Source: Euonymus europaeus (taxonomy: Eukaryota > Streptophyta > Magnoliopsida > Celastrales > Celastraceae). From it: a stretch of DNA of 64,000 nt. The stretch is from the NCBI GenBank assembly GCA_963580455.1, contig OY756957.1:27124501-27188500 (forward strand), given 5' to 3'. Under the pieces are notes generated by a model. That model was not told the DNA's origin and searched no databases. It saw only the letters and a program-made list of their open reading frames with translations. Positions 1 through 64,000 of this stretch are shown here, piece by piece. Each line of letters begins with the position of its first letter. Position 1 is the stretch's first letter. A program made the translations under genes and the position numbers.

Positions 1-226
1 TTGGCGGCCCAAGAAATATGGGCCGTTAATAAAGAGACCGCAAAATACTGAACCCCGTAGCTAAGGTTATTAAACTGTGGGCTCCCGCCTACGAGGGCAC
101 AATACATGCCAAGGCCCACATTAACTCCCTCCAACCCCGCCCGCTTTGAACTTTTACGGGGAACCCCACTCCGAGATCAACGACCATCTTTGATCGTCCA
201 ATCCCATCCTGAAGAGATCCAACCGT

Positions 227-291
227 CCACGTCATCGATCCAAGTCTCATCCAAATTAACCAATCATCTCTCAACCGCGCCTCCTATATAT
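227..291 (+). promoter_or_regulatory. Histone H2B core promoter: type I element, CCAAT, TATA
   Basis: CCACGTCATCGATCCAAG at 227-244 contains the plant histone hexamer (ACGTCA) followed directly by a degenerate octamer half (CGATCC). This hexamer-octamer pairing is the S-phase type I element of plant histone genes. A CCAAT box lies at 260-264 and a TATATATA box at about 284-291, roughly 110 bp before the ATG. Site II-like GGCCCA/TGGGCC motifs occur within the first 25 bases of the window. The layout predicts replication-coupled expression in dividing cells. The motifs are seen directly; the regulation is inferred. Confidence 0.7.
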
Positions 292-398
292 ACGAAACCT
301 CTCATCGCCAAAACCACTCTCATTGTCACACCCTCCTCGCAGATTCGAAGAATTTGTTTCCTTTTTCACTCGCAGGAATTTCCTTGAAGAAACTTTCG

Positions 399-806
399 AT
401 GGCACCAAAGGCGGACAAGAAGCTAGCTGAGAAGGCCCCAGTGGCCGAGAAGAAGCCGAGAGCGGAGAAAAAGTTGCCCAAGGAGGCGCCAGTCTCGGCT
501 GAGAAGAAGAAGAAGAAGGCCAAGAAGAGCGTGGAGACGTACAAGATCTACATCTTCAAGGTTCTGAAGCAGGTGCATCCAGATATCGGGATCTCGAGCA
601 AGGCCATGGGGATCATGAACAGCTTCGTCAATGATATCTTTGAGAAACTCGCGCAGGAGTCTTCCAGGCTCGCTCGCTACAACAAGAAGCCAACCATCAC
701 CTCTCGCGAGATTCAGACTGCTGTGAGGCTGGTGCTCCCCGGTGAACTCGCCAAGCACGCCGTCTCTGAAGGCACTAAGGCCGTCACCAAGTTTACTAGC
801 TCTTAG
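399..806 (+). CDS. Histone H2B, intronless
   Basis: This encodes the core histone H2B (135 aa), which pairs with H2A in the nucleosome. The first 45 or so residues are a plant-type Lys/Ala/Glu/Pro-rich tail (starting MAPKADKK) with a run of lysines before the fold. The histone fold then follows with the family blocks [31 protein letters not shown] and [18 protein letters not shown], and a C-terminal helix ending KAVTKFTSS. Length and absence of introns match replication-dependent plant H2B. The frame is open upstream to about 354, but MAPKA is the family start and the ATG at 399 sits just after the 5' UTR, so I chose it. The promoter carries histone-type elements. Paralogues are so similar that no H2B number can be given. 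Confidence 0.97.
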
Positions 807-16686: not shown

Positions 16687-17825
16687 ATGTCGAATTTAAA
16701 AAGTTTAGATTTCACGGCACTTGATATTTCTGGAAGCAATTATCTATCTTGGGTTGTTGATGCTGAGACTCACTTGGGTGCTATGGGACTTGACAACACC
16801 ATTAAAGCGGAAAATACTGAGTCTCCACAGAATCAGGCTAAAGCAATGATTTTGCTTCGCCGCCACCTTCATGAGGAATTAAAAGCCGAATACCTCATGG
16901 AAAAGAATCCTCTTGCATTGTGGATTGATTTAAGGGAAAGGTATGAACACCAGAAGAATATCATACTCCCAAAAGCTCGTTACGACTGGATGCACCTGAG
17001 GATGCAAGACTACAAATCAGTCCGTGAGTATAATTCTGCTATGTACAAAATTATCTCACAACTTGATTTTTGTGGTGAGAAACCTACTGAGTCGGAAAAG
17101 CTCGTTACGACTGGATGCACCTGAGGATGCAAGACTACAAATCAGTCCGTGAGTATAATTCTGCTATGTACAAAATTATCTCACAACTTGATTTTTGTGG
17201 TGAGAAACCTACTGAGTCGGATAAGCTAGAAAAAACACTGTCCACATTCCATGCTTCTAATATGATATTACAGGAGCAATATCGGCAGAAAGCATATGCA
17301 AAACATTCTCATCTAGTAGGTGCTTTACTTGTGGCAGAGCAGAATAATGAGCTGCTGTTGAAAAATCATCATGCTCGCCCTACTGGCAGTACACCGTTCC
17401 CTGAAGCGAACGCTGTTGTACATAATAATCGAGGACGAGGACGTGGGCGTGGTGGAAGAAGAGGTCGAGGCCGTGGTTATGGCCATCGAAACCATGGAGG
17501 TAATTCTGGTTATAATCCATACCACCAGAAGAGGTATGATGGTGAAACAAGTCAGGCAAATAAAAGATTGCCAAATAAACCTCAGAAGGGTAATAATGAA
17601 ACTTGTTTCAGGTGTGGTGCTCAGGGGCATTGGTCACGTACCTGTCGTACGCCTAGACATTTGATAGATTTATATCAAGCCTCAATAAAAGGAAAGAGCA
17701 AGGTGGCAGAAACAAACTTCGCTAAGTTTGATAATAATGATGGCTTTGATGATCTTGAAGATCTTGGCAATTTAACACATTTGGATGTTTCAGATTTCCT
17801 AGAAAATCCTGATATATATAAATAA
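16687..17825 (+). pseudogene. Copia gag, frame broken by a 125-bp tandem duplication
   Basis: The first part (16687-17124) begins MSNLKSLDFTALDISGSNYL, a Copia-type UBN2 gag. A second frame (to 17825) continues the same domain and ends with a CCHC zinc knuckle (CFRCGAQGHWSRTC, near 17609-17650) behind an Arg/Gly-rich RNA-binding stretch. The break comes from a perfect 125-bp direct duplication at 16971-17220; 125 is not a multiple of three, so the frame shifts. Gag would form the virus-like particle in the cytoplasm. Confidence 0.9.
16971..17220 (+). repeat. Perfect 125-bp tandem duplication inside gag
   Basis: The unit starting AAAAGCTCGTTACGACTGG occurs at 16971-17095 and again, identical, at 17096-17220. 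It repeats the segment coding RYDWMHLRMQDYKSVREY and what follows. Identity of the copies shows the event is very young. The five-base AAAAG at the junction is a possible slippage or microhomology site. Confidence 0.95.
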
Positions 17826-17957
17826 GTTTATTTACTTGTTGAGTTTAATTGTTGTATTGTATTTTGATTGTAAAAGCATTTAATTGCAAGCAATAAAATT
17901 TCAGCATTTTATAAATATCATTTTGATAAGTTAAAATACTAATAATAAATAAAAAAA

Positions 17958-18056
17958 AAGTCCAGAACTGCTGACGGTGGGTTCGATCCTCGGACCTTCT
18001 TTTCTAAACTATATTTTATTGGATCTCGCCACCACTCGGCCACCAGTCCCGGACTT
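17958..18056 (-). other. 99-bp inverted-repeat insert with tRNA-like A and B boxes
   Basis: AAGTCCAGAACTG (17958-17970) faces CAGTCCCGGACTT (18044-18056), a 13-bp inverted repeat with two mismatches, both G-U pairs if transcribed. On the minus strand TGGCCGAGTGG (18042-18032) is a perfect tRNA A box of the Ser/Leu type. GGATCGAACCC (17989-17979) is a near B box about 45 bp further on. It lies in the roughly 300-bp non-coding gap between gag and pol. It may be a tRNA pseudogene, a SINE head or a tiny MITE; it does not fold as a normal tRNA. Confidence 0.5.
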
Positions 18057-18130
18057 GTCAAATTTATACGTTTAATATATTTATATGCAATCTAATATTT
18101 ATTTATATTATACTTTTGGATTAATATGTG

Positions 18131-21100
18131 ATGCAAGTTATTTTGTTTCTCTTTAGAAATATGGTCGATGAAGATATATGTTTAATTGATAGTGCAACAA
18201 CTCACACTATCCTTAAACATAAGAAATATTTTCTACACTTGACATTTCTTGAAGCAAATGTAAATACCATCTCAGGCACATCAAAAATAATTGAAGGCTC
18301 CGGAAGAGCTAATATCATATTGCCTAGAGGGACAAAAATATATATTGAGGAAGCATTATACTCTCCCAAATCAAAAAGAAACTTATTGAGTTTCAAGGAT
18401 ATTCGTCACAATGGATATCATTTTGAGTCTGGAAGAGAAGGTAATAAAGATTACCTATATATTACTTCTATCATTTCAAGCCAGAAGCTTGTACTAGAAA
18501 AGTTTGTGGCTTTTTCTTCAGGTTTATATCATGCAAGTATAAAATGGATTGAAACACATGTTGTGATGCACCAGAAGTGTTCTGATTTTAAAGAATCTAT
18601 ACTTTGGCATGATCGTCTTGGTCATCCAGGTTCTACTATGATGCGTAGAATAATTGAAAATACAAATGGACATCCATTACGAAACCAGAAGTTTCTTTTA
18701 CCTAAAGATCACTTATGTGTTGCTTGTTCACAAGGAAAATTAATTGTGAGACCATCTACCCTGAAGGTAGGCGTAGAATCTCCTAATTTTCTGCAACGTG
18801 TTCATGGAGATATATGTGGACCTATTCATCCATCATGCGGACCATTTCGTTATTTTATGGTTTTGATAGATGCATCATCTAAGTGGTCACATGTATGTTT
18901 ATTATCTACTCGAAATGTTGCATTTGCTAGATTCTTAGCTCAAATTATTCGTTTACATGCACAATTTCCAGATTATCCCATTAAGTCTGTTCGATTAGAT
19001 AATGCTGGTGAATTTACCTCTAAAGCCTTCAATGATTATTGCATGTCATTAGGTATAGATGTTGAACATCCAGTTGCACATACTCATACTCAAAATGGTT
19101 TGGCAGAATCACTAATAAAACGTCTTCAGTTGATTGCTAGACCTATGCTTTTGAAAAGTAAATTACCTTTTGATGCTTGGGGACATGCCATATTACATGC
19201 TGCATCATTAATTCGAATCAAACCATCTGCTCATCATTCATATTCACCTTTACAGCTAGTGTTAGGTTCTCAACCCAATATTTCACATCTTCGTATATTT
19301 GGTTGTGCTGTTTATGTTCCTATTTCACCTCCACAACGTACTAAGATGGGACCACAACGTCAACTTGGTATCTATGTTGGTTTTGATTCTCCTTCTATTA
19401 TTCGATATCTCGAACCACTAACTGGCGATATTTTCAAAGCTAGATTTGCAGATTGTCACTTTGATGAATCTATTTTTCCTCCTTTAGGCAACAAAGATTC
19501 TCAACATCATAAACATGATGATATCTCTTGGAACACTGTGACACAATATCATTTTGATCCACGAACAAAGCAGTGTGAACTTGAAGTTCAGAAAATTGTT
19601 CATTTACAAGGTATTGCTAATCAATTACCTGATGCATTTAATGATACTTCAAAAGTTTTGCAATCACATATTCCTGCTAGAAATTCTACTGAACGTATCA
19701 ATGTCCCTGAAGGACAAATAGCAAGTGATGAATTAAAACCACGTCAGAAACGTGGAAGACCACTGGGAGCTAAAGATAGATTTCCCCGAAAAAGAAATGT
19801 CCAAACTCCTATCAAAGCCCTAGCAGAGCATACTCCAGAAGAGCATATTTCTCCTGTAGAGATTACTCCTGAAGAGAATAAACTTATTGAATCTCAACAT
19901 TCTGAAAAAATATCTCTTGAAGAGATACAAGTACCTGATGATGAAAATAATGAGCGCTCAATAACTCATAAAGAAATTTGCATATGCAGTTGCTACAGAC
20001 ATTACCAAAAGTAATGAGGATTCTGAGCCTAAATCCGTTGATGAATGTCGACATAGAAGTGATTGGCCTAAATGGCAAGAAGCTATGAAAGCAGAACTAA
20101 ATTCTCTATCAAAAAGAGAAGTTTTTGGACCTGTAGTCCAGACACCAGAAGGTGTTCAACCAGTAGGATTCAAATGGGTGTTTGTGCGCAAGAGAAATGA
20201 GAATAATGAGATTACTCGTTATAAAGCGAGACTTGTAGCACAAGGTTTCTTGCAGAGACCAGGAATTGATTATGATGAAACATATTCTCCTGTCATGGAT
20301 GGAATTACTTTTAGATTCTTAATTGGCCTAACGGTAGCTGAACGATTGACTATGCGTCTTATGGACGTAGTGACAGCTTATTTATATGGATCATTGGATA
20401 GTGAAATTTATATGAAAATCCCTGAAGGATTTCGGTTGCCTGAAGCAAAACCTAGAGGATTGTGTTCAATCAAACTCCAGCGTTCACTATATGGATTAAA
20501 ACAATCCGGGCGCATGTGGTATAATCGATTGAGTGAATATCTTATTAGAGAAGAATTTACGAATGATCCAATTTGTCCATGCGTATTTATTAAAAAGTCA
20601 GAATCTGGATTTGTTATAATCGCTGTTTATGTTGATGACTTAAATTTAATTGGGACTCCTGAAGAGCTCACTAAAGCTGCTGATTATTTAAAAGCAGAAT
20701 TTGAGATGAAAGATCTAGGAAATACAAAATATTGTCTTGGTCTTCAGATCGAACATTTGAGTAATGGTATCTTTCTTCATCAATCTACTTATACCGAAAA
20801 AGTATTAAAGCAGTTCTACATGGATAAGGTACATCCTTTGAGTTCTCCAATGGTAGTCCGTGCACTTGATGTAAAGAAAGATCAATTTCGACCTCAAGAT
20901 GAGGGGGAGGCATTACTTGGTCCAGAAGTACCATATTTGAGTGCAATTGGATCTTTGATGTATTTAGCCAATTGTACTAGACCAGATATTGCATTTCCTG
21001 TGAATTTGTTGGCCAGATATAGTTCTACTCCTACTCGACGTCATTGGAATGGAGTTAAACATATCATGCGTTATCTGCGAGGAACAACCGACTTGGGTTT

Positions 21101-21650
21101 ATTCTACTCATCAGATCTCAAGTCTCAGTTGGTTGGATATGCAGATGCCGGTTATTTATCCGATCCTCACAATGCCAAGTCTCAGACTGGTTACGTATTT
21201 CTTTTTGGAAATACTGCTATTTCTTGGAAATCAGTTAAACAAACACTCACAGCAACTTCTTCCAATCATTCTGAGATAGTGGCGATTTACGAAGCTAGTC
21301 GGGAATGCGTATGGCTGAGAGGAATGATTTCTCATATTCAAGAGAAGTGTGGATTACAATCTGTTAAAAGTATCCCAACGGTAGTCTATGAAGACAATGC
21401 TGCTTGTATAGCTCAGCTCCGCGGAGGATACATAAAAGGTGACAGGACTAAACACATCTCCCCGAAATTCTTCAGTACACATGAGCTCCAGAAGAGTGGT
21501 GATATAGATGTTCAACAAGTTCGTTCTTGTGATAATCTAGCAGATTTATTCACTAAAGCGTTACCACCTACAACATTCAAGAAGTTGGTCTATAAGATTG
21601 GTATGCGGAAACTCCAAGATCTTCTTGCATCAGGGGGAGTAAAGACATAA
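18131..21650 (+). pseudogene. Copia pol polyprotein, interrupted by a frameshift
   Basis: The first frame (to 20014) carries the protease signature DSATTHTIL, the pre-integrase HDRLGHPG and an integrase core with GDICGP, RLDNAGEF and HTQNGLAE. The second frame (20085-21650, with its true beginning upstream of 20085) holds the reverse transcriptase (FKWVFVRK, ARLVAQGF, YVDDL) and RNase H (SWKSVKQ, EDNAACI), and ends just before the polypurine tract. A single-base shift near 19975-19979, probably an extra T in AAATTTGC, separates the frames. A pyrimidine-rich tract ending TTTAG sits directly before the pol start, so pol may have been expressed by splicing (inference). Confidence 0.92.
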
Positions 21651-47180: not shown

Positions 47181-47487
47181 CATGGACCAAGTCCAGCAGT
47201 CACCCCTCCAAGTCTTCATCCATACTAACCGAAAGACACAATAGAACAAAGAAAGCGGATATGGATAGCACACAAGAACCACACAGTCGCGCGGTGGCCC
47301 TCCACCAAAACCTTGTCACGAGCAAGGACAAAAACTCACATCAGAGAGACCATAAACAGAAAAATGGGTGCATAAGTCAGTGTTGTATGGAGGGTAACAA
47401 AATTAGCTATAATAATGGGATTTTTCTTATAAATTTTTTTGATTTATCACAAACCCTATTAACCAGTTAAGATACACACATATAGCC

Positions 47488-49779
47488 ATGGAAGCTCCTC
47501 CATCATTCCAATCCTTTTGTCTTCCATGGCTACTATTTGGTCTACTCTTCATGAAATCATCTGCTTTAGGATCACCATTAAGAAATATTCCGAGACTCAG
47601 TGTGCTTGGAGGATTACTGAACCCGGAAAAGAGCGAAGAAGCATTGGCCTTGGAGGATCTAGAGACTTATTACTATGACCAAACACTTGATCACTTCAAC
47701 TATAAGCCAGAAAGTTATGGTACCTTCAAGCAAAGGTATATGGTGAGCTACAAGCACTGGCGTGGGGCACACGTCGCCGCTCCCATATTTGCATATCTTG
47801 GTGAGGAGTCGCCAGTGGATGATGATGTGAAGGCCATAGGATTTTTAACCGATAATGCACCTATGTTTGGTGCTCTTATAGTGTATATAGAGGTATGCCT
47901 AACAGACTTCCTATTATTATCTTATTTAATTTATTTTTAAGAAGGAGATACTATTGTACATTTATGTGCAGCACCGATACTATGGAAAATCAATCCCATT
48001 CGAAGGAATGCAAAACAAAACATTGAAGAATGCAACAGACCGGGGTTACTTCAACTCAGCTCAAGCTTTGGCAGATTATGCAGAAGTGCTAACTTACTTG
48101 AAACAAAAGTTATCAGCAGAGGCTTCTCCAGTTATCGTTATTGGTGGATCCTATGGAGGAAGTATGTTGTATACTTAACAATGTTTATGAGTCTTTGGCC
48201 CGGATACTTGGATCTGTTTGTATGTTTTAATTGGTTGTTTTGTTTTCAGTGTTGGCTTCGTGGTTTCGACTAAAGTATCCTCATATTGCCCTTGGAGCGC
48301 TGGCCTCTTCGTCTCCGATTCTCTATTTTGATGGCCTTACGCCACCTGAAGCATATTATAATGTTGTCACAGAGGACTTTAGAGTAAGAAAATTCAACAT
48401 TTTGGTTAAAACACAAGCTTTGATCATTAATATATTCTTAATAGCCTGGCTTGGATTGGGATTAATTAGTATTGTCTGTTGCAGGAAACTAGTGAGAGTT
48501 GCTACAACACCATAAAGAAATCTTGGTCTGAAATCGACAAAGTTGCTGCTAAACCGGATGGCCTTTCCATGCTCAGTAAAAAGTTCAAAACTTGCACGTA
48601 AATCATCCATGATTCACAAAATTCCTAGCTTTATGCTCAACTTTCAAAGAAAAACTAGGACTAAACTCTTCTTTTGCACTAAACTCTTCTTTTGTGTACG
48701 CTGTTTTCCCTTATTAGACCATTGCGCAGTGCATCCACATTGAAGGACTATTTGGACAGTATGTACACAGCAGTAGCACAATATGACAGGCCGCCTCATT
48801 ATCCGGTCAATGTGGTTTGTAATGGCATCGATGGAGAGCCAAAGGAAAGCAGCGATTTACTCGACAAGGTTGCTGCTGGAATGTTTGCATATAGAGGAGA
48901 CTTAGATTGTTATCAATTCCAGGATTTCTTTTCATCAGAAACTCTGCTGGGCTGGAGTTGGCAGGTAAATCATATCAGACTATGTACGTGTAAGTTTATC
49001 TACAATTAGAGGATAACTAATAAACTTCAACGAGATTTCTGGTTTTTGCAGGTGTGTAGTGATCTTGTGATACCAATTGGCATTGGCAACCACACTATGT
49101 TTCCACCTTCACCATTCAATATGACAGATTACGTCGAGAATTGCAAGGAGAGCTATGGAGTTGCTCCACGACCACATTGGATCACTACTTATTTCGGCGG
49201 TCATGTATGTCTATAGTCACTTTCTCATCCTCTCTGTATAATATACAACCCGATCAGCTTGAACTCTACTCCGGTAAGAGTCACTGATGCATCGTTGTAT
49301 TGCAGAGTATAAAACAAGCCCTCAAGAGGTTTGGTAGCAACATCATCTTCTCGAATGGCCTCCGCGATCCCTACAGCAGTGGAGGGTAAACTCAAATTCA
49401 TTAACAAAAAACGTCAAGATATTGCTATGAACTATTCCTATGTGTCTATAGATGTAACAAATGTTGTTTTGACTTGTTTTCGAGGGCAGGGTGTTGGAAG
49501 ACATTTCACATTCTGTTGTGGCAGTGTCTACCAAGAGAGGTAATCATGGTTTTGAGATTGAACATAACATTCTCTGCTTCTGTCAACATGTTCTTCTGCT
49601 TCAATTATATTTGAGTTGCCAGTTAACCCTATTATAAACATACAGGTGCTCATTGTCTGGACATTTTGCCAGCGAAAGAAACCGATCCAGAATGGTTGGT
49701 GATGCAGCGAAACGTAGAGCTTGAGATCATCAATGGGTGGATTCTGAAATACTATGAAGATCTGCTCAAGAGTTCATGA
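47488..49779 (+). CDS. Serine carboxypeptidase S28 (lysosomal Pro-X carboxypeptidase-like), copy 1
   Basis: Nine exons: 47488-47892, 47972-48161, 48250-48383, 48485-48597, 48718-48964, 49052-49204, 49306-49385, 49490-49539 and 49646-49779, giving 501 aa. A signal peptide ([19 protein letters not shown]) is followed by the S28 start [11 protein letters not shown]. The catalytic triad is Ser195 in GGSYGG, Asp435 in [12 protein letters not shown] and His460 in GAHCLD, all present. Residues RYYGKSIPF and several N-x-T/S sites fit a secreted or vacuolar glycoprotein. The family cleaves C-terminal residues after proline. The tandem partner at 52082 has the same exon structure. Donor 4 is weaker here (CAC|GTAAAT) than in copy 2 (CAA|GTAAGT). 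No break is seen. Confidence 0.93.
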
Positions 49780-55933: not shown

Positions 55934-56886
55934 TTAGGGTTTTTTGGAAAAATGACCCCCTTTTCATAATATTTGGAGATCTAACCCCACCTCTCATTCT
56001 ATCTAAAGTTTAACCCTTTTGTCAAAGGAAAAGACGCTGCTGCCCTTACACGTCTTTTGATGCACGTTCCCTCCAAGAAAACCCTAGAACCCATGAAAAC
56101 CAGCCTGCAGCTTGCTCGCCTCTTCCTCTCTCTTCCTCCATGTCTCGCACCTCTCAAGCTTCGAAGTGAGGTAGATCTCTCACCTCGTTCAGCATCTGTC
56201 TCCCAGAAAGGATCCTAACCTCTGGAACAAGGACCGAACGCAAGCTCCGTGTTCGATTGGACTAACATACCAGTGCTCAACGTCATTTCTATGTGTCCAG
56301 CACTCCATCCTTTCTCGGACTACTTATCCAAAGCTCCGAAGCTTCATCTGTCGTTGGACATCTTGTCCTCAGTTTTTGTTTGCCTTCTAATTTTGTTTTG
56401 AGGAGGAATATCACTAAACTAAGGTTAGTCTGGTGCATTTGGTTTTGAGAACTGTCATATATTACAACCGAACGATACAAAGTGAAATATTTATTTGATA
56501 AATGCATGTATTGTTCATCTAGAAGTAGTTTCGTTCAGAAAATTTTTTCGTTGACAAGTAGCTTTAACAATCGTTGACAAGTTGTTTTATTCTCGTTGAA
56601 ATGAGTTAATGTTTTCGTTGAGAAATATGTTTAAGCTTGTTTATCTGTCTTTTTTTTTCGTTGATAAATAGTTTTATTTTCGTTTATATATGTCAATTTT
56701 TTCGTTGGGAAATATGTTTGAAATTATTTTCGTTTATCCCAGATAACCATTTGGTTGATAAATATATATATACTTTTTGTTTAGAACTGTATGTATTTTT
56801 GGTTTATAATTATGTTCATGTAAGTGTTATGTTAAGGACTGTGTATAAATTTTTCGTTGACTACTTGTTATCTTTGTGATTCAGAA

Positions 56887-59620
56887 ATGGAGGAGGTTAG
56901 CATATTGGTACGCTATTGTGGCTCTTGGGAACGGGTTGGAGTCAGTTATGCGTATAAAGGTGGGAAGAGTAAGGGTTTGATCATTCCAAATGATATTTCG
57001 TATGACCAATTATTGGATATGGTGTATGAATTGACGGGAAAAGATCGTGAAACATACAATGTTCAATTGAAGTACATTTACAATGTCCATGGTCCAACTG
57101 AGCCCGTTGAGATTGAGAGTAATAAGGACGTCCGCTTCTTCGTTCGATGCAATAGCGACAGGAGCATACCTGGAACATCTCTATGTGTTACAGTCACTGA
57201 TAGAGACGTATCTGACGATGCTAATGATCTGGAATTTGATTTGAATGACTACCGATATGATATTGGGTTTACAGATTTGGTGGATGATCCGGCCGAAGTT
57301 GGATGCAGCAGGAACATGGAGGATCTTAATGATCCTCAAATACATGGATCAGAATTTAACGCAAATTATCATTCAGCTGGTGGAATCGACGCTTCTAATT
57401 CTATTAGTAAGTCACAAAGTTGTGGTAATGCGATATCCTCCAACCAACATCTTGTACTTGATGATGCATCTACCATTTTGAAAGTCGGAGAAATATTTCC
57501 AGACAAAAAGAGTCTGTTAAAAAAGTTATGCATTCATGCTCTTCATTTGCACTTTGAATTCAAAGTGCATAAATCGACAAAAATTCTTTTTGTTGTTAAA
57601 TGCAAAGTAGATGACTGCAAGTGGTGGCTTCGAGCAACCAGAGTTAAGGATACATCTTTTTTCATGATCAAGGTATTTCGGGATAGCCATTTGTCTTCCT
57701 CTTGTTTTGAATATAATAATGCTCGACAAGCGACAGGATGGGTTGTGGGAGAATGCATCAAATCTAAATATGAGGGAGTTAGCTGTATTTACAGGCCAAA
57801 GGACATTGTGAAGGATTTCGAGAGAGTGCATGGAGTTGCCATCAGTTATGATAAAGCTTGGCGGGCAAGGGAAAGTGCACTACATTCACTGCATGGTACG
57901 CCGGAACAATCTTTTGCTGAATTATCATCATTTTTTGCAAAATTGGAATCAAAAAATCCAGGTACAGTAACACATATTAAGTCTGACTCTTGCAATCGTT
58001 TCAAATATTGCTTTATGGCACTTGGTCCATCGTTAAGAGGTTTTCGTACTTGTATAAGACCTGTAATTTGCGTCGATGGAACTCATTTGAAGGGTAAATA
58101 TCGTGGAACATTATTCGTTGCCACATGTTTAGATGGAAACAACCAGGTATATCCTTTGGCTTTCGGGGTTGGTGATTCAGAAAATGATGATGCGTGGCAA
58201 TGGTTTTTTGAAAAATTGAATGCAGCTATTGGATGCATTGAATCACTTGTTTTCATTTCGGATAGAAATGGTAGTATTGAAAAAGGAATTCGTAGAGTGT
58301 TTCATGATGCCAAACATGGTATTTGCATGTATCACCTTGGTCAGAATTTGAAGGCAAGAAAATTTAGTGACTCCGTCATCCCTGTATTCTACAAGGCAGC
58401 CAAGACATACAATCAGATGGAGTTCCACCAGATTATGAACCAGATACGTAGATTTGATTCAGGTAATGTTTTCAATTATTTGACGGAAGCAGGTGTTCAC
58501 AAATGGTCTCGCGCTTATTTTCCCGGAGAACGGTATAATATCATGACTACCAACATTGCTGAATGCCTGAATGGAATATTAAGGGATGCTCGCAGCTTAC
58601 CTATTACAAGGTTGATGGATCATTTGCAATCTTTATTACAGCGATGGTTTCATGATAGACGCTTAGTAGCTGTTGAGATGAAAAGCGAGTTGACGGACTA
58701 TTATGATAAAGTATCTGAAGAAAGAAGGGACAGGTATGTAATTTTCAGATCATTATTTCATATTTTATCGTTGACAAACTCTCGTTGAAAGTACTTATCG
58801 TTGATAAATGGGTCAATTTTTGGTTGATAAGTTCGTAATTATGGTTGATATCCGAGTCAAATGCCGGACATGTCTGAAACGACCAAGTCATAAGGTTGAT
58901 AAACTCTCGTTGAAAGTACTTATCGTTGATAAATGGGTCAATTTTTGGTTGATAAGTTCGTAATTATGGCTGATATCCGAGTCACATGCCGGACATGTCT
59001 GAAACGACCAAGTCGTAAGGTTGATAAACTCTCGTTGAAAGTACTTATCGTTGATAAATGGGTCAAATTTTGGTTGATAAGTTCGTAATTATGGTTGATA
59101 TCCGAATGTTATAATTTATATAACTAAGTGTTCTTCTACTGTTATGTTGTTATAATAAATTTACAGAGCCAGAGTAATGACTGTAGAGCCTATTACTATA
59201 CATTCTTTTCTTGTGAAAGACGGTGATGTTGGAGGACAAGTAGATTTGTCCAGTAAATCGTGCACTTGCAGAGTTTTCGATCTCGATCATATGCCATGCG
59301 TCCACGCTTTTGCAGCATGTAGAGCTAGAAAGATACCAACAGTTCCCTTGTGTTCGCCTTACTACCGTACAGACATGCTTGTCCTTGCGTATGCAGAACC
59401 AGTAAACCCTGTTTTGAGTTCAGAAAATAGTGTATCGGTTGATGACGTCAGAGAGTTGCTCCCACCGAAAACTAAGAGAAAAAGCGGAAGGCCGAAGAAG
59501 AATCGAATACCGTCGTCCGGAGAGCGAAAGCCTAAAAGAAAATGCAGTCGCTGCAATCGAGATGGTCACAACCGTCAAACATGCAGTGAGCCCATTAATC
59601 TGCAATCTGGCACGTCATAA
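56887..59620 (+). CDS. MuDR-type MULE transposase with SWIM zinc finger
   Basis: Two exons, 56887-58733 and 59167-59620, coding 766 aa. The N-terminal about 90 residues form the PB1-like domain common in MULE proteins. A MuDR DNA-binding domain (about 195-270) follows, then the MULE DDE core with Asp397 in VDGTHLKGKYRGTL and Asp459 in ISDRNGSIEKGI, and CMYHLGQNLKARK. Exon 2 gives the SWIM finger C648-x-C650...C660-x-H662 and a C-terminal CCHC knuckle (742-755). It would excise and insert the element in the nucleus. The frame is open upstream of 56887, but the first in-frame ATG is there. The intron is 433 bp and consists mostly of 125-bp repeats rich in GTTGATAA. No defect is visible. Confidence 0.93.
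58769..59109 (+). repeat. 125-bp tandem repeats filling the transposase intron
   Basis: About 2.7 copies with a 125-bp period; CTCGTTGAAAGTACTTATCG starts at 58781, 58906 and 59031. Copies differ at only a few bases. Each full unit contains three GTTGATAA octamers plus near variants (GTTGATAT, CGTTGAAA). Confidence 0.93.
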
Positions 59621-59891
59621 TCTGTATTCGTATTCGTAAGTAATTATTTTAAAGGATATTTCTCCCTGGTTGATAACTAATGTTATATATATGTAGTTGA
59701 TAACTACTTTCTCGAATTTGTTATATGTATTTTCGTTGATAAAAATAGATGTGTGGGTTGAGATGTGTCGTTAAGCACATTTATTTCTCGTTGATATTTT
59801 TCTAAAACTGTCCACAATCAACACATAACATAACAGATTAACAAATCACTGTCAAATATTTTGCTTCAAATGTACATAAGCATAATCAAAA

Positions 59892-62800
59892 CTAACTACC
59901 CAACATCACATTTTTCCATGTCTCCACAGCGAATTTTTTCCTGAGAAACTGCATGTCCTGAGCCTTCAACATCGTAATGTCCTTACCAGCACTTAGAATT
60001 TCAATGATTTTAATGCAGAAAATACCACAGTCGGAACTGGAAAAATTAAAAGAAAAATAGTGGATGTTAGTTATGACGTTGGATTTTTATTGTATTTCAA
60101 ATAAAGTTACGCAACACTTACCCATTATCTTGCTGCGGAACATCAGAGGGACGCTCAACTGGCCATGGAGAGCCGTCAACGATAATACTTGCACGCACTA
60201 GAATTATAGGAATTAATTCAGATAATGGCTTCATCTCGGTGTTGAACTTCTCTTGTCTTGTGTGTTTTACAAGAGAGTCATAGCAAACAATCTTCTTCTC
60301 AGCCATATCGATGCAACCAGCAGCCCAATGATCAGAAGTAATATTTATTGGAAAATAAATCTTTTCCAACTTCGACCAGGATTCAGTTCCCCTCTTTGAT
60401 CCGTTGACAAAAGATAGAAGACGATTGTCATTGTCCCATTTTAATGGATTTGTGTCTTCTAGATATAGTTTATGTCTGATCTGGACATATGACTGGAAGT
60501 AATAGAAATTTGTCAACCAGAATAAACGAGAATGAAGTATTTTATCAACCAGAATAAACGAGAATGAAGTATTTTATCAACCAGAATAAACGAGAATAAA
60601 GTAGTTTATCAACGAGAATAAAGTAGTTTATCAACGAGAATAAAGTAGTTTTTCAACCAGAATAAAGTAGTTTTTCAACCTATATAAATGAGAATAATGA
60701 CTTACAAAGAACGTGGTATCCATAATCGCACATTTTTGTGTGAAAATATCTGCATTTCCAGCTAATCTCTTACGTATTATATCCATAGCCACATCAAGAT
60801 GCTGAAGAAAGATGTAAATCATCAGACATTTGTAATTAAAAATAGTATGACAAAATGAAGAACAATACGTACCGTATCCAATAACCATTTGCTTTGGTCC
60901 ATCACAGTATCGAACCATTCTTTCGTTGCATCACATACATTGACATCTATGGTCTTATCCTTGTTCACGGGATTCATGTAGAATTCATCCATTTCTATTT
61001 CCCATTCTTTTGGGTATTCTGAAAGTGGGTTAAATTCTAGAAATTGTTGCGGCTTTCTCTTCTTCTTTGTGGGATCAACGTACGGTGACACCTGATAGGG
61101 GCCTCTCTTTTTTATCCGTTTACCATGAACACCAGTGTTTTCAGTTGCCAAGTTTGCCAACAACTGCAATTTCTCGTCATATGTTTCTTCATCATCAACT
61201 GCTTCACCAACCTGATCCTCTGTCTTCTGAACTTCAGCAACAGATTCCTCAACCTTATCCACTGCAGATTTATCGACCTCATCAGCAGATGATTTTTGGA
61301 CCTTATCAACCTCAATACCTTCAGCAGCCTCACCATGAGCGTCTTTATCAACCTCCACACCTGTGTTATCAACCTCAATATTAGATTCATCAACCTCACC
61401 TACAGCTGCTTTATCAACATTCACAGTAGTGTTATCAACCTCAATCTTTCCTTCAGCAACCTCACCAACAGCGGCTTTATCAACCTTCACACCTGTGTTA
61501 TCAACCTCAATATTAGATTCATCAACCTCACCTACAGCTGCTTTATCAACATTCACAGTAGTGTTATCAACCTCAATCTTTCCTTCAGCAACCTCACCAA
61601 CAGCGGCTTTATCAACCTTCACACCTGTGTTATCAACCTCAAAATTTCCTTCATCAACCTCACCCACAACAGTTTTTTCAAACTCCACAGCTGTGTTATC
61701 AACCACACCCACAACGTTAACAACTTCTTTTGCATCAGACTTCTCAACCTCATCCACAGCAGAGTTTTCAACCACGTCATTGATATCTTCTTCAAATCGC
61801 TCACCCATAACAGATTTATCAATCAAATCACCAGATTCTTTATCAACCGTAGCATCGACGTCTTTATCAACCTCAGACTTCAAACTATCAACCTCGATAG
61901 TGGAGTTATCAACCTTAACAGAAGTGGTGTCAACCTCAACATTCACATTATCATCCTGATGAAACTTATCAGATGTTTTTTCCGTCTCGTACATGGCATC
62001 CTTATTCTTATCATGTGGGGCAATGTAAAATTTTCCAGAATCATCGTCAGTAGATTCAGATGATCCATCTTTTACTTGCCCAGCAATATTCGAAACTACC
62101 TTATCTAACTCTCTTTTGGAGTTCTCATCCAGCTCTTCTTTCTCCCCTCCTCTATTTTTCTCATCCCCCTGTTTGAAATCTGTATTTTTACTATATCCAG
62201 TCCTTCGCTTTTTCTCAATGTTTTGGCGCAAATTTTGTAGTGCTATGCGTTTCTTGCTCTCTAGATCCGCTGCCTCTTTTAGCGGACTCCCCTTATCCTG
62301 CATCAATCGTGTGCTCCTCCTAAGTTGTTCTGTCTGAATACCCTCCCCCCTTGGTTTCCTTACAACCTTTCTTACAGTCTTCCTCTTCTCCATTATCTTT
62401 GTCTCATCTACTTTTCCGCTGTCCTTCTTGGATGATGACCCCATGTGAGCAGATTTTGAGACAGAAATATCCCTCACAACCATCTTTTCTTTCATCTGTG
62501 AATTTTTCAACTCTAAAATTTCCTGCTCAACCTTTTCGAGTCTTACGGAGATATCATCAATCTTATTTTCGAAAATGGAAAGATTTTCCCTTACCATTCC
62601 ATTGATCAAGGCACTCACCCTCAGTCCCAGCTCCGTAGACTTCAAATCATCCACAATTTTGGCTGGATCTTCATTAGGTTCTGACCTGTTCAGTCTTTTT
62701 GCCTTATTCTTCAACATTTTTTCTTTACTCGACCTCTTCACTACAACTTCAGTGCCAACCATCAAATTACTTGTGTACTCAAGAGAGGCCTCCGCCTCTG

Positions 62801-63885
62801 TAGGAACCATATCAATCACTTCCACCTGAGTAACAAGACCTTAAGTTATCAACAAAAATCATGTATATTATCTACGGAAAATATTATACTATAAACGAAA
62901 AATACTGCATTATCAACGAGAACAACTATGTTATCAACGAGAACTACTAAGTTATCAACAAAAAATACTAACGAATCAACGAAAACCATTAAGTTACCAA
63001 CGAAATTTTTTTTACCTCTAATCCTTCAAGCAACTCAATAACAGTCTTCGATTTTGGTGCTTTTGTAGATGTCCACTTTAACATCCTCGGAATCAATGTG
63101 ACATCAACACAGTTTGCTAGATTTTCAGCAATGGAAGGAACAACCTCGTATGCCCATATCTGGAAGGCTAGAGGAAATCCTTGAAGATTGTACCACTCGA
63201 ATTCCGTTCTTGATTTCTTCAACTTGTCGGCGCGTCCAACAAGTGAATTACTAAGCTGTTCCACTGTTTTCTTGTAGCACAAAGTACCCCAAGGATACTT
63301 GTTGAAAGAGTCAAAATGCTCAACCAGCCTGAAAAAATCAACATCAACAAGCAGCTTCGAATCTCTACCCAGAAGCACAGTCTCAAGAAAGTAGACTAGT
63401 GCTAGTTTGACCACATCGTCTGGGTCATCGCATTTCATGAAAACTTTTTGTAACTCCGCACAAGATATAGAAAATCTTCCTCCAAAATATTTTTCTTGCA
63501 ACCCAACCTCAGGTTGCCCACCATACTCTTTCTCTACCATTTCTAGGAATTCAGACATCTCTGGAATGGCATGACAATTCAGGCCTGTTATCATGTTGAA
63601 TTCCCGTATGGAAAAAATAGTCTTATGTCCACCAATATTAAATATCATCCTCCCAGCCTGTTCATCCTCATCTGATTGCACCTGTCGTAAAAGTATTTGG
63701 TGAACAATCTGAGCAGCCCATTTGATGTTTTTCAAATGGATGAACTGGCCGAAGCATGATCCCTTAAACGTTGTAAGTTGATCATCGTTCAACTTACTTT
63801 TGATGTCGCTAAGGGTTTCAAAAACCCTTGCGAAAGACAAAACCTTAGCACCGAATCTCTTAGTTGGAGGAATTTTGAATTCCAT
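59892..63885 (-). CDS. DUF1985 / Ulp1-like (C48) protein of the MULE, 1144 aa
   Basis: Five exons: 63885-63016, 62825-60873, 60801-60706, 60492-60122 and 60036-59892. The N-terminal part (about 45-190) matches DUF1985 (FGQFIHLKNIKWAAQIVHQI, IREFNMITGLNC). The middle is basic, then acidic, with a predicted coiled coil and a Val-Asp repeat (VDNTGVKVDKAAVGEV and variants). The C-terminal Ulp1 peptidase keeps all catalytic residues: His1028 (DHWAAGC), Asp1045 (CYDS), Gln1094 and Cys1100 (QDNGSDCGIFC). It could remove SUMO from host proteins. DUF1985 relatives include, as I recall, the VANC anti-silencing factors of Arabidopsis VANDAL elements. Introns 1 and 3 are full of the GTTGATAA motif. The 651-codon exon 2 is fully open. 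I reject a host SUMO protease because of DUF1985 and its pairing with the transposase. Confidence 0.9.
60509..60690 (-). repeat. 32/22-bp tandem repeats in Ulp1 intron 3
   Basis: On the plus strand units begin TTTATCAACCAGAATAAACG (32 bp, about three copies) and then shorten to TTTATCAACGAGAATAAAG (22 bp, about four copies). Each unit carries TTATCAAC or the variant TTTTCAAC. They fill most of the 213-bp intron. Confidence 0.9.
61339..61644 (-). repeat. 132-bp in-frame coding tandem repeats (44 aa) in the Ulp1 protein
   Basis: Two almost identical 132-bp units (61381-61512 and 61513-61644), preceded by a partial one, encode 44 residues made of two similar 22-aa halves: IEVDNTGVKVDKAAVGEV and IEVDNTTVNVDKAAVGEV. 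Each VDN or VDK codon triplet is GTTGATAAN, the same octamer found in the introns. Four octamers fall in each unit. Confidence 0.95.
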
Positions 63886-64000
63886 TTATGAACTCTGCAT
63901 ACAAACTCATGTGGTTATGAGGCCAAAAATTAAGTTATCAACCTAAGTAAGAAAATCTATAAACCTAAAAATAAGACATTTTATCAACATAAAAATCTGT

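Follow-up and report, generated by a model that had tools for sequence, protein, structure and literature searches.

The question raised by this locus is why a single eight-base word, GTTGATAA, should be repeated dozens of times within one transposable element. The window analysed here, the 64,000 nucleotides of Euonymus europaeus contig OY756957.1 from position 27,124,501 to 27,188,500, ends in a Mutator-like transposon (MULE) whose two convergent genes occupy the DNA from position 55934 to the window end (64000). A mudrA-type transposase is encoded on the + strand and, opposite to it on the - strand, a protein in which a DUF1985 domain is joined to a Ulp1 (C48) protease. The left boundary is a provisional value taken over from the original prediction, an earlier note on this DNA; on the right the element extends past the window. 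With a probability of about 0.72, we take the element to be a transposon of the VANC-Ulp1 (KAONASHI/KIU) type, the DUF1985 part of which binds GTTGATAA and so lifts the silencing of this transposon family only. It looks like a member of this self-activating type because it combines dozens of copies of the word with a gene for a protein whose predicted fold matches that of VANC21, a transposon protein that binds words of this kind and is reported to lift host silencing.

Counted on both strands, the exact octamer occurs 45 times in the window, with 38 copies after 55934 and seven in the other 55.9 kb before it. This bears out the earlier figure of about 38 for the element, whereas the figure of about four elsewhere was too low. 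Dinucleotide shuffles of the whole window (n = 100) gave a mean of 4.4 copies and a maximum of 10. GTTGATAA is the commonest non-simple 8-mer of the element, and after removal of the exon repeat and of two of the three 125-bp units described below it was still present 17 times; in 200 shuffles of this trimmed sequence no complex 8-mer exceeded seven copies, and in 24 overlapping 8.07-kb windows of the other DNA the top complex 8-mer reached a count of five to seven.

The noncoding copies, 23 octamers in 2331 bp, have a single orientation in each half of the element. Two (56660 and 56754, accompanied by one-mismatch versions) are found between the left end and the transposase ATG (55934..56886, +). 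Eight, all sense, lie in the transposase intron (58734..59166, +), which contains three tandem units of 125 bp, and three (59669, 59696 and 59735, on +) follow the transposase stop (59621..59850, +). In the Ulp1 gene four form an array with 22/32-bp spacing in intron 3 (60493..60705, -), four lie in intron 1 (62826..63015, -) at 62846, 62910, 62931 and 62952, and two (63935 and 63981) are found 5' of the start codon (63886..64000, -) in a segment cut by the window end. In each of these six octamer-bearing segments the observed count was reached in none of 2000 dinucleotide shuffles, and GTTGATAA is the only 8-mer that occurs in six of the eight noncoding segments with at least two copies in each.

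Tandem units of 125, 66, 32 and 22 bp are clearly present, and it could be argued that slippage and local duplication have amplified the word passively, without any function in binding, and that the exonic copies do no more than encode a peptide repeat. When noncoding copies with flanks at least 60% alike were collapsed, however, 11 of the 23 were left (14 at 70%). These 11, from six segments and with flanks less than 60% alike, keep all eight bases; around this common core there is a T at -4 in all 11 and a C or G at -1 in nine. The segment-wise excess and the common core of the non-redundant copies thus show that it is the word itself that recurs, beyond any repeat unit that carries it.

The remaining 15 octamers form an array (61303..61913, -) in exon 2 of the Ulp1 gene, partly as 66-bp tandem units, and read in frame as Val-Asp-Lys/Asn. 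The original prediction had the motif spreading through coding sequence; it proved instead to be confined to this one peptide-repeat stretch of one exon, and the six remaining exons of the gene models are free of it. Of 17 Val-Asp-Lys/Asn sites, 15 are encoded with GTT GAT. If the amino-acid sequence is kept and codons are sampled according to their use elsewhere in the gene, the expectation is 5.2 octamers against the 15 observed (reached in 0 of 5000 trials), or 3.4 against nine when tandem units are collapsed (P 0.001). With the codon use of the repeat itself the expectations rise to 8.2 against 15 (P 0.0004) and, collapsed, to 5.3 against nine (P 0.026). This modest codon signal suggests that, beyond the peptide, the DNA word has itself been under pressure or gave rise to the array, and is a further point against passive amplification. 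On the other side, a relative from Tripterygium wilfordii (LOC120007277, P0001) also has VD repeats in its linker (VDN at 554, 561 and 568), so that the peptide may be under selection as protein; its Val-Asp pairs are kept at 7-residue steps with the third residue variable, as might be the case for a protein-level repeat, and the exonic sites in the window are unphased (33 pairs, mean cosine 0.01), which rules out helical spacing of the array. Overall, amplification without function seems to us improbable. That a single DNA repeat both encodes the variable peptide repeat of the reader protein and serves as the DNA target of that protein, with GTTGATAA in frame giving Val-Asp-Lys/Asn, is an idea that we put forward tentatively and regard as rather doubtful. 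VD[K/N] repeats were also considered as a feature of the whole family but found no support, as a strong VD excess was seen in only two of 21 scanned proteins (that of the window and P0001), many of the others being fragments that lack the linker.

All 13 octamers up to 59735 are on the + strand and all 25 from 60542 onwards are on the - strand. The seven background copies before 55934 are all on the - strand, a number too small for interpretation. Such a reversal between the two halves could also be explained if it were the transposase that bound GTTGATAA, the octamers being comparable to the subterminal repeats found in other DNA transposons and their mirrored halves reflecting the symmetry of a transposition complex. 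Exon 1 of the transposase (56887..58733, +), which is free of octamers, does contain a DBD_Tnp_Mut domain together with the MULE domain (Pfam), and a PB1 match that is weak and under the Pfam cut-off; DBD_Tnp_Mut is related to WRKY proteins, whose W-box contains TTGAC. Exon 2 (59167..59620, +), likewise without octamers, has a SWIM zinc finger and a weak zinc knuckle match, again under the cut-off. As the right end is beyond the window, the octamers 5' of the Ulp1 gene could moreover be close to a terminus. At the other end, however, 726 bp separate the provisional left boundary from the first exact octamer, and the arrays occupy introns and the middle of the element, and we therefore consider a transposase site unlikely.

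The same strand pattern means that each of the 38 octamers has the sense orientation relative to the gene that holds or adjoins it. This would be expected if the motif worked in RNA, as sense-strand arrays for splicing or transcript control of each gene; of the five modelled introns three contain arrays, and TTGAT resembles a plant branch point. Yet the other two introns, short ones of 71 and 85 bp, contain no octamer, three copies lie past the transposase stop, two lie upstream of each start codon and 15 are exonic. The spacing described next also suggests a DNA ligand, and a role in RNA is in our view very improbable.

Noncoding octamers up to 130 bp apart have distances whose periodicity is strongest at 10.5 bp, with a mean cosine of 0.57 over 35 pairs. 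For 23 non-redundant pairs the mean cosine is 0.53 (P 0.003 at 10.5; P 0.013 when the best of five periods between 10 and 11 is taken), and the same tendency is seen in 39 pairs of an exact with a one-mismatch site, for which the value at 10.5 is 0.41 (P 0.019) and the best period 10.7. Because pairs inside one array are not independent, all these P values err on the generous side. Helical periodicity of VANC motifs is reportedly mentioned in the abstract of a 2022 EMBO Journal paper.

The candidate reader of these sites is the product of the five-exon gene on the - strand, a protein of 1144 amino acids consisting of DUF1985, a long repeat-rich linker and the Ulp1/C48 protease. Exon 1 (63016..63885, -), without octamers, encodes a DUF1985 domain (PF09331, E 1.4e-22, 80.6 bits against a Pfam cut-off of 35.1) that is homologous to the DNA-binding protein VANC21, with an E of 7.5e-5 for the sequence alone and of 2.1e-27 with a 21-row profile. 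Its predicted fold matches that of VANC21 crystallised with its DNA (PDB 9lnj; the sequence in 9lnk is identical). Exon 2 (60873..62825, -) encodes the long variable linker that houses the exonic array, and exon 3 (60706..60801, -) contains no octamer. Exon 4 (60122..60492, -) carries Peptidase_C48 with His, Asp and Gln, and exon 5 (59892..60036, -) supplies the Cys (SDCGIF); these four, the catalytic residues, align with yeast Ulp1 (1euv). The exon joins were modelled by eye, and all four fall inside stretches that align to the T. wilfordii protein. Both reading frames are open in the splice models, in agreement with the earlier view that the transposase and DUF1985-Ulp1 genes are apparently intact.

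LOC120007277 is the top one of five matches listed among the candidates scored, with 44% identity over 54% of the query. It too is a DUF1985-linker-Ulp1 protein, and both ends align well; its linker, in which the VD repeats stand at the same 7-residue steps, is however shorter, poorly alignable and has fewer repeats with a varied third residue. T. wilfordii accounts for seven of the 15 matches in another list of relatives, and from these two lists the host would probably be related to that plant. When its protein was used as query only itself was found at E 1e-10 among the 7997 candidates with most shared words that were scored. Exon 1 also resembles the plant mobile domain PF10536 weakly, at a level under the cut-off (E 0.001), and a further relative (P0011) is annotated with both DUF1985 and the plant mobile domain; on these two grounds the two families may be related. 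Weak Pfam hits to Cep192_D7 and CysA_C_terminal in exon 2 were rejected, being below the cut-off and having no matched stretch of their own.

The available passages of Hosaka 2017 (PMC5735166) describe VANC21 of Arabidopsis thaliana as binding YAGTATTAY, a motif found at high density and with a uniform orientation in noncoding DNA; the motif is mainly noncoding there, and two coding-region probes were without it. Tandem repeats are described for the VANC21 and VANC6 motifs alike, the variable part of VANC proteins bears tandem peptide repeats, and DUF287 is marked beside DUF1985 in the comparison of VANC proteins (Hosaka 2017, PMC5735166). From what is accessible of a 2023 EMBO Reports paper (PMC10398659), RNA-directed methylation is in competition with VANC at noncoding regions. 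The element in the window resembles VANDAL21 (Hiun) in encoding a DUF1985 protein of the same predicted fold and, as far as those passages go, in having a short motif that is dense in its noncoding DNA, of the same orientation within arrays and tandemly repeated. It differs in the motif itself, in the fused Ulp1 protease, in that DUF287 was not found, and in the octamer array in the coding exon of the reader gene. With VANDAL6, whose VANC6 is linked in the same text to AGTTGTCC and AGTTGTAC (Hosaka 2017, PMC5735166), it shares a tandemly repeated noncoding motif and the letters GTTG, after which the core diverges; the host lineage is also another. This likeness was rejected as evidence, because 20% of random 8-mers share some 4-mer with the VANC6 motifs on either strand.

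A further counterpart is found among Ulp1-bearing elements, of which the KAONASHI MULEs are also marked by a lack of terminal inverted repeats. As far as the accessible portions of a 2026 review (PMC13317346) show, with reference to a 2022 paper, motifs are recognised by Ulp1-bearing VANC genes (KIUs), which cause hypomethylation of KIU elements, and Ulp1 is conserved in KIU-type elements in eudicots. The ULP domain was reversed in the KAONASHI (KI) MULEs of a grapevine survey, with both orientations seen in other plants, according to the part of that paper available (PMC2528002). The element in the window is like the KI MULEs in that its Ulp1-domain gene is reversed relative to the transposase, and like KIU, as described in those portions, in having an Ulp1-bearing VANC-type gene in a motif-rich element. 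The Ulp1 fusion, which the original prediction had presented as a departure from the known system, is therefore none, since such genes have already been described. The resemblance to VANC that it proposed is itself upheld by the sequence and predicted fold of the DUF1985 part and by a motif layout like that of VANC21 targets, while its points on the Ulp1 fusion and the coding spread are not sustained.

On the VANC-Ulp1 reading, the second gene would yield a VANC-type protein whose N-terminal DUF1985 binds GTTGATAA in the element's own noncoding DNA, with dense arrays on one helix face providing specificity. The bound protein would strip host silencing from this transposon family only, and the transposase could then be expressed. 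Binding we infer with the backing of homology to a solved protein-DNA complex; the removal of silencing, or demethylation, would be expected from the behaviour of the family. Several observations weigh against this reading. Fifteen octamers are exonic, as opposed to the mainly noncoding targets of VANC21, and none is found in the two shortest introns. Pairs of one-mismatch sites are without the period (nine pairs, 0.12), and two segments (spacings of 27/39 and 46 bp) are out of phase. A Pfam search with E up to 1 found no DUF287 in the proteins of the element. The fold alignment to VANC21 has 19% identity, so that DNA specificity is not readable from it. The element-level counts rest on a single DNA copy; blastn and tblastn with the element and its proteins found no second copy in bases 1-55900, the sole match being a 200-base overlap common to query and target. 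With the exception of DUF287, the element nevertheless fits the VANC-Ulp1 kind on every testable defining feature, and its status as a new member of these anti-silencing MULEs is well supported, the target word predicted for it being GTTGATAA.

Elsewhere in the window, an open reading frame at 213-803 (+) has a core-histone domain (E 2.6e-21) and probably represents a histone-fold gene of the host. At 17091-21647 (+), three separate open frames contain zinc knuckle, GAG-pre-integrase, integrase core and RVT_2 domains, which we take from their order to be the body of a Ty1/copia-type retrotransposon. An exon-like frame at 47443-47937 (+) matches the start of serine carboxypeptidase S28 (E 2.2e-9).

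The element differs from the known kind in its motif, its likely host and its exonic array. In the literature accessible here there was no earlier description of the GTTGATAA motif or the exonic array, although the 2022 EMBO Journal paper on anti-silencing in eudicots may already catalogue such a motif; a search for a publication on the VANC21-DNA structure was likewise negative. The locus adds a candidate motif-protein pair in which Ulp1 is still attached, probably from another plant order, to a function so far shown, in the texts available, in Arabidopsis. With the solved VANC21-DNA complex for comparison, it becomes possible to test what the protease does and by which code DUF1985 is matched to a DNA word. 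Should the exonic array truly be a target, it would suggest a direct mechanical link between protein repeat and DNA repeat.
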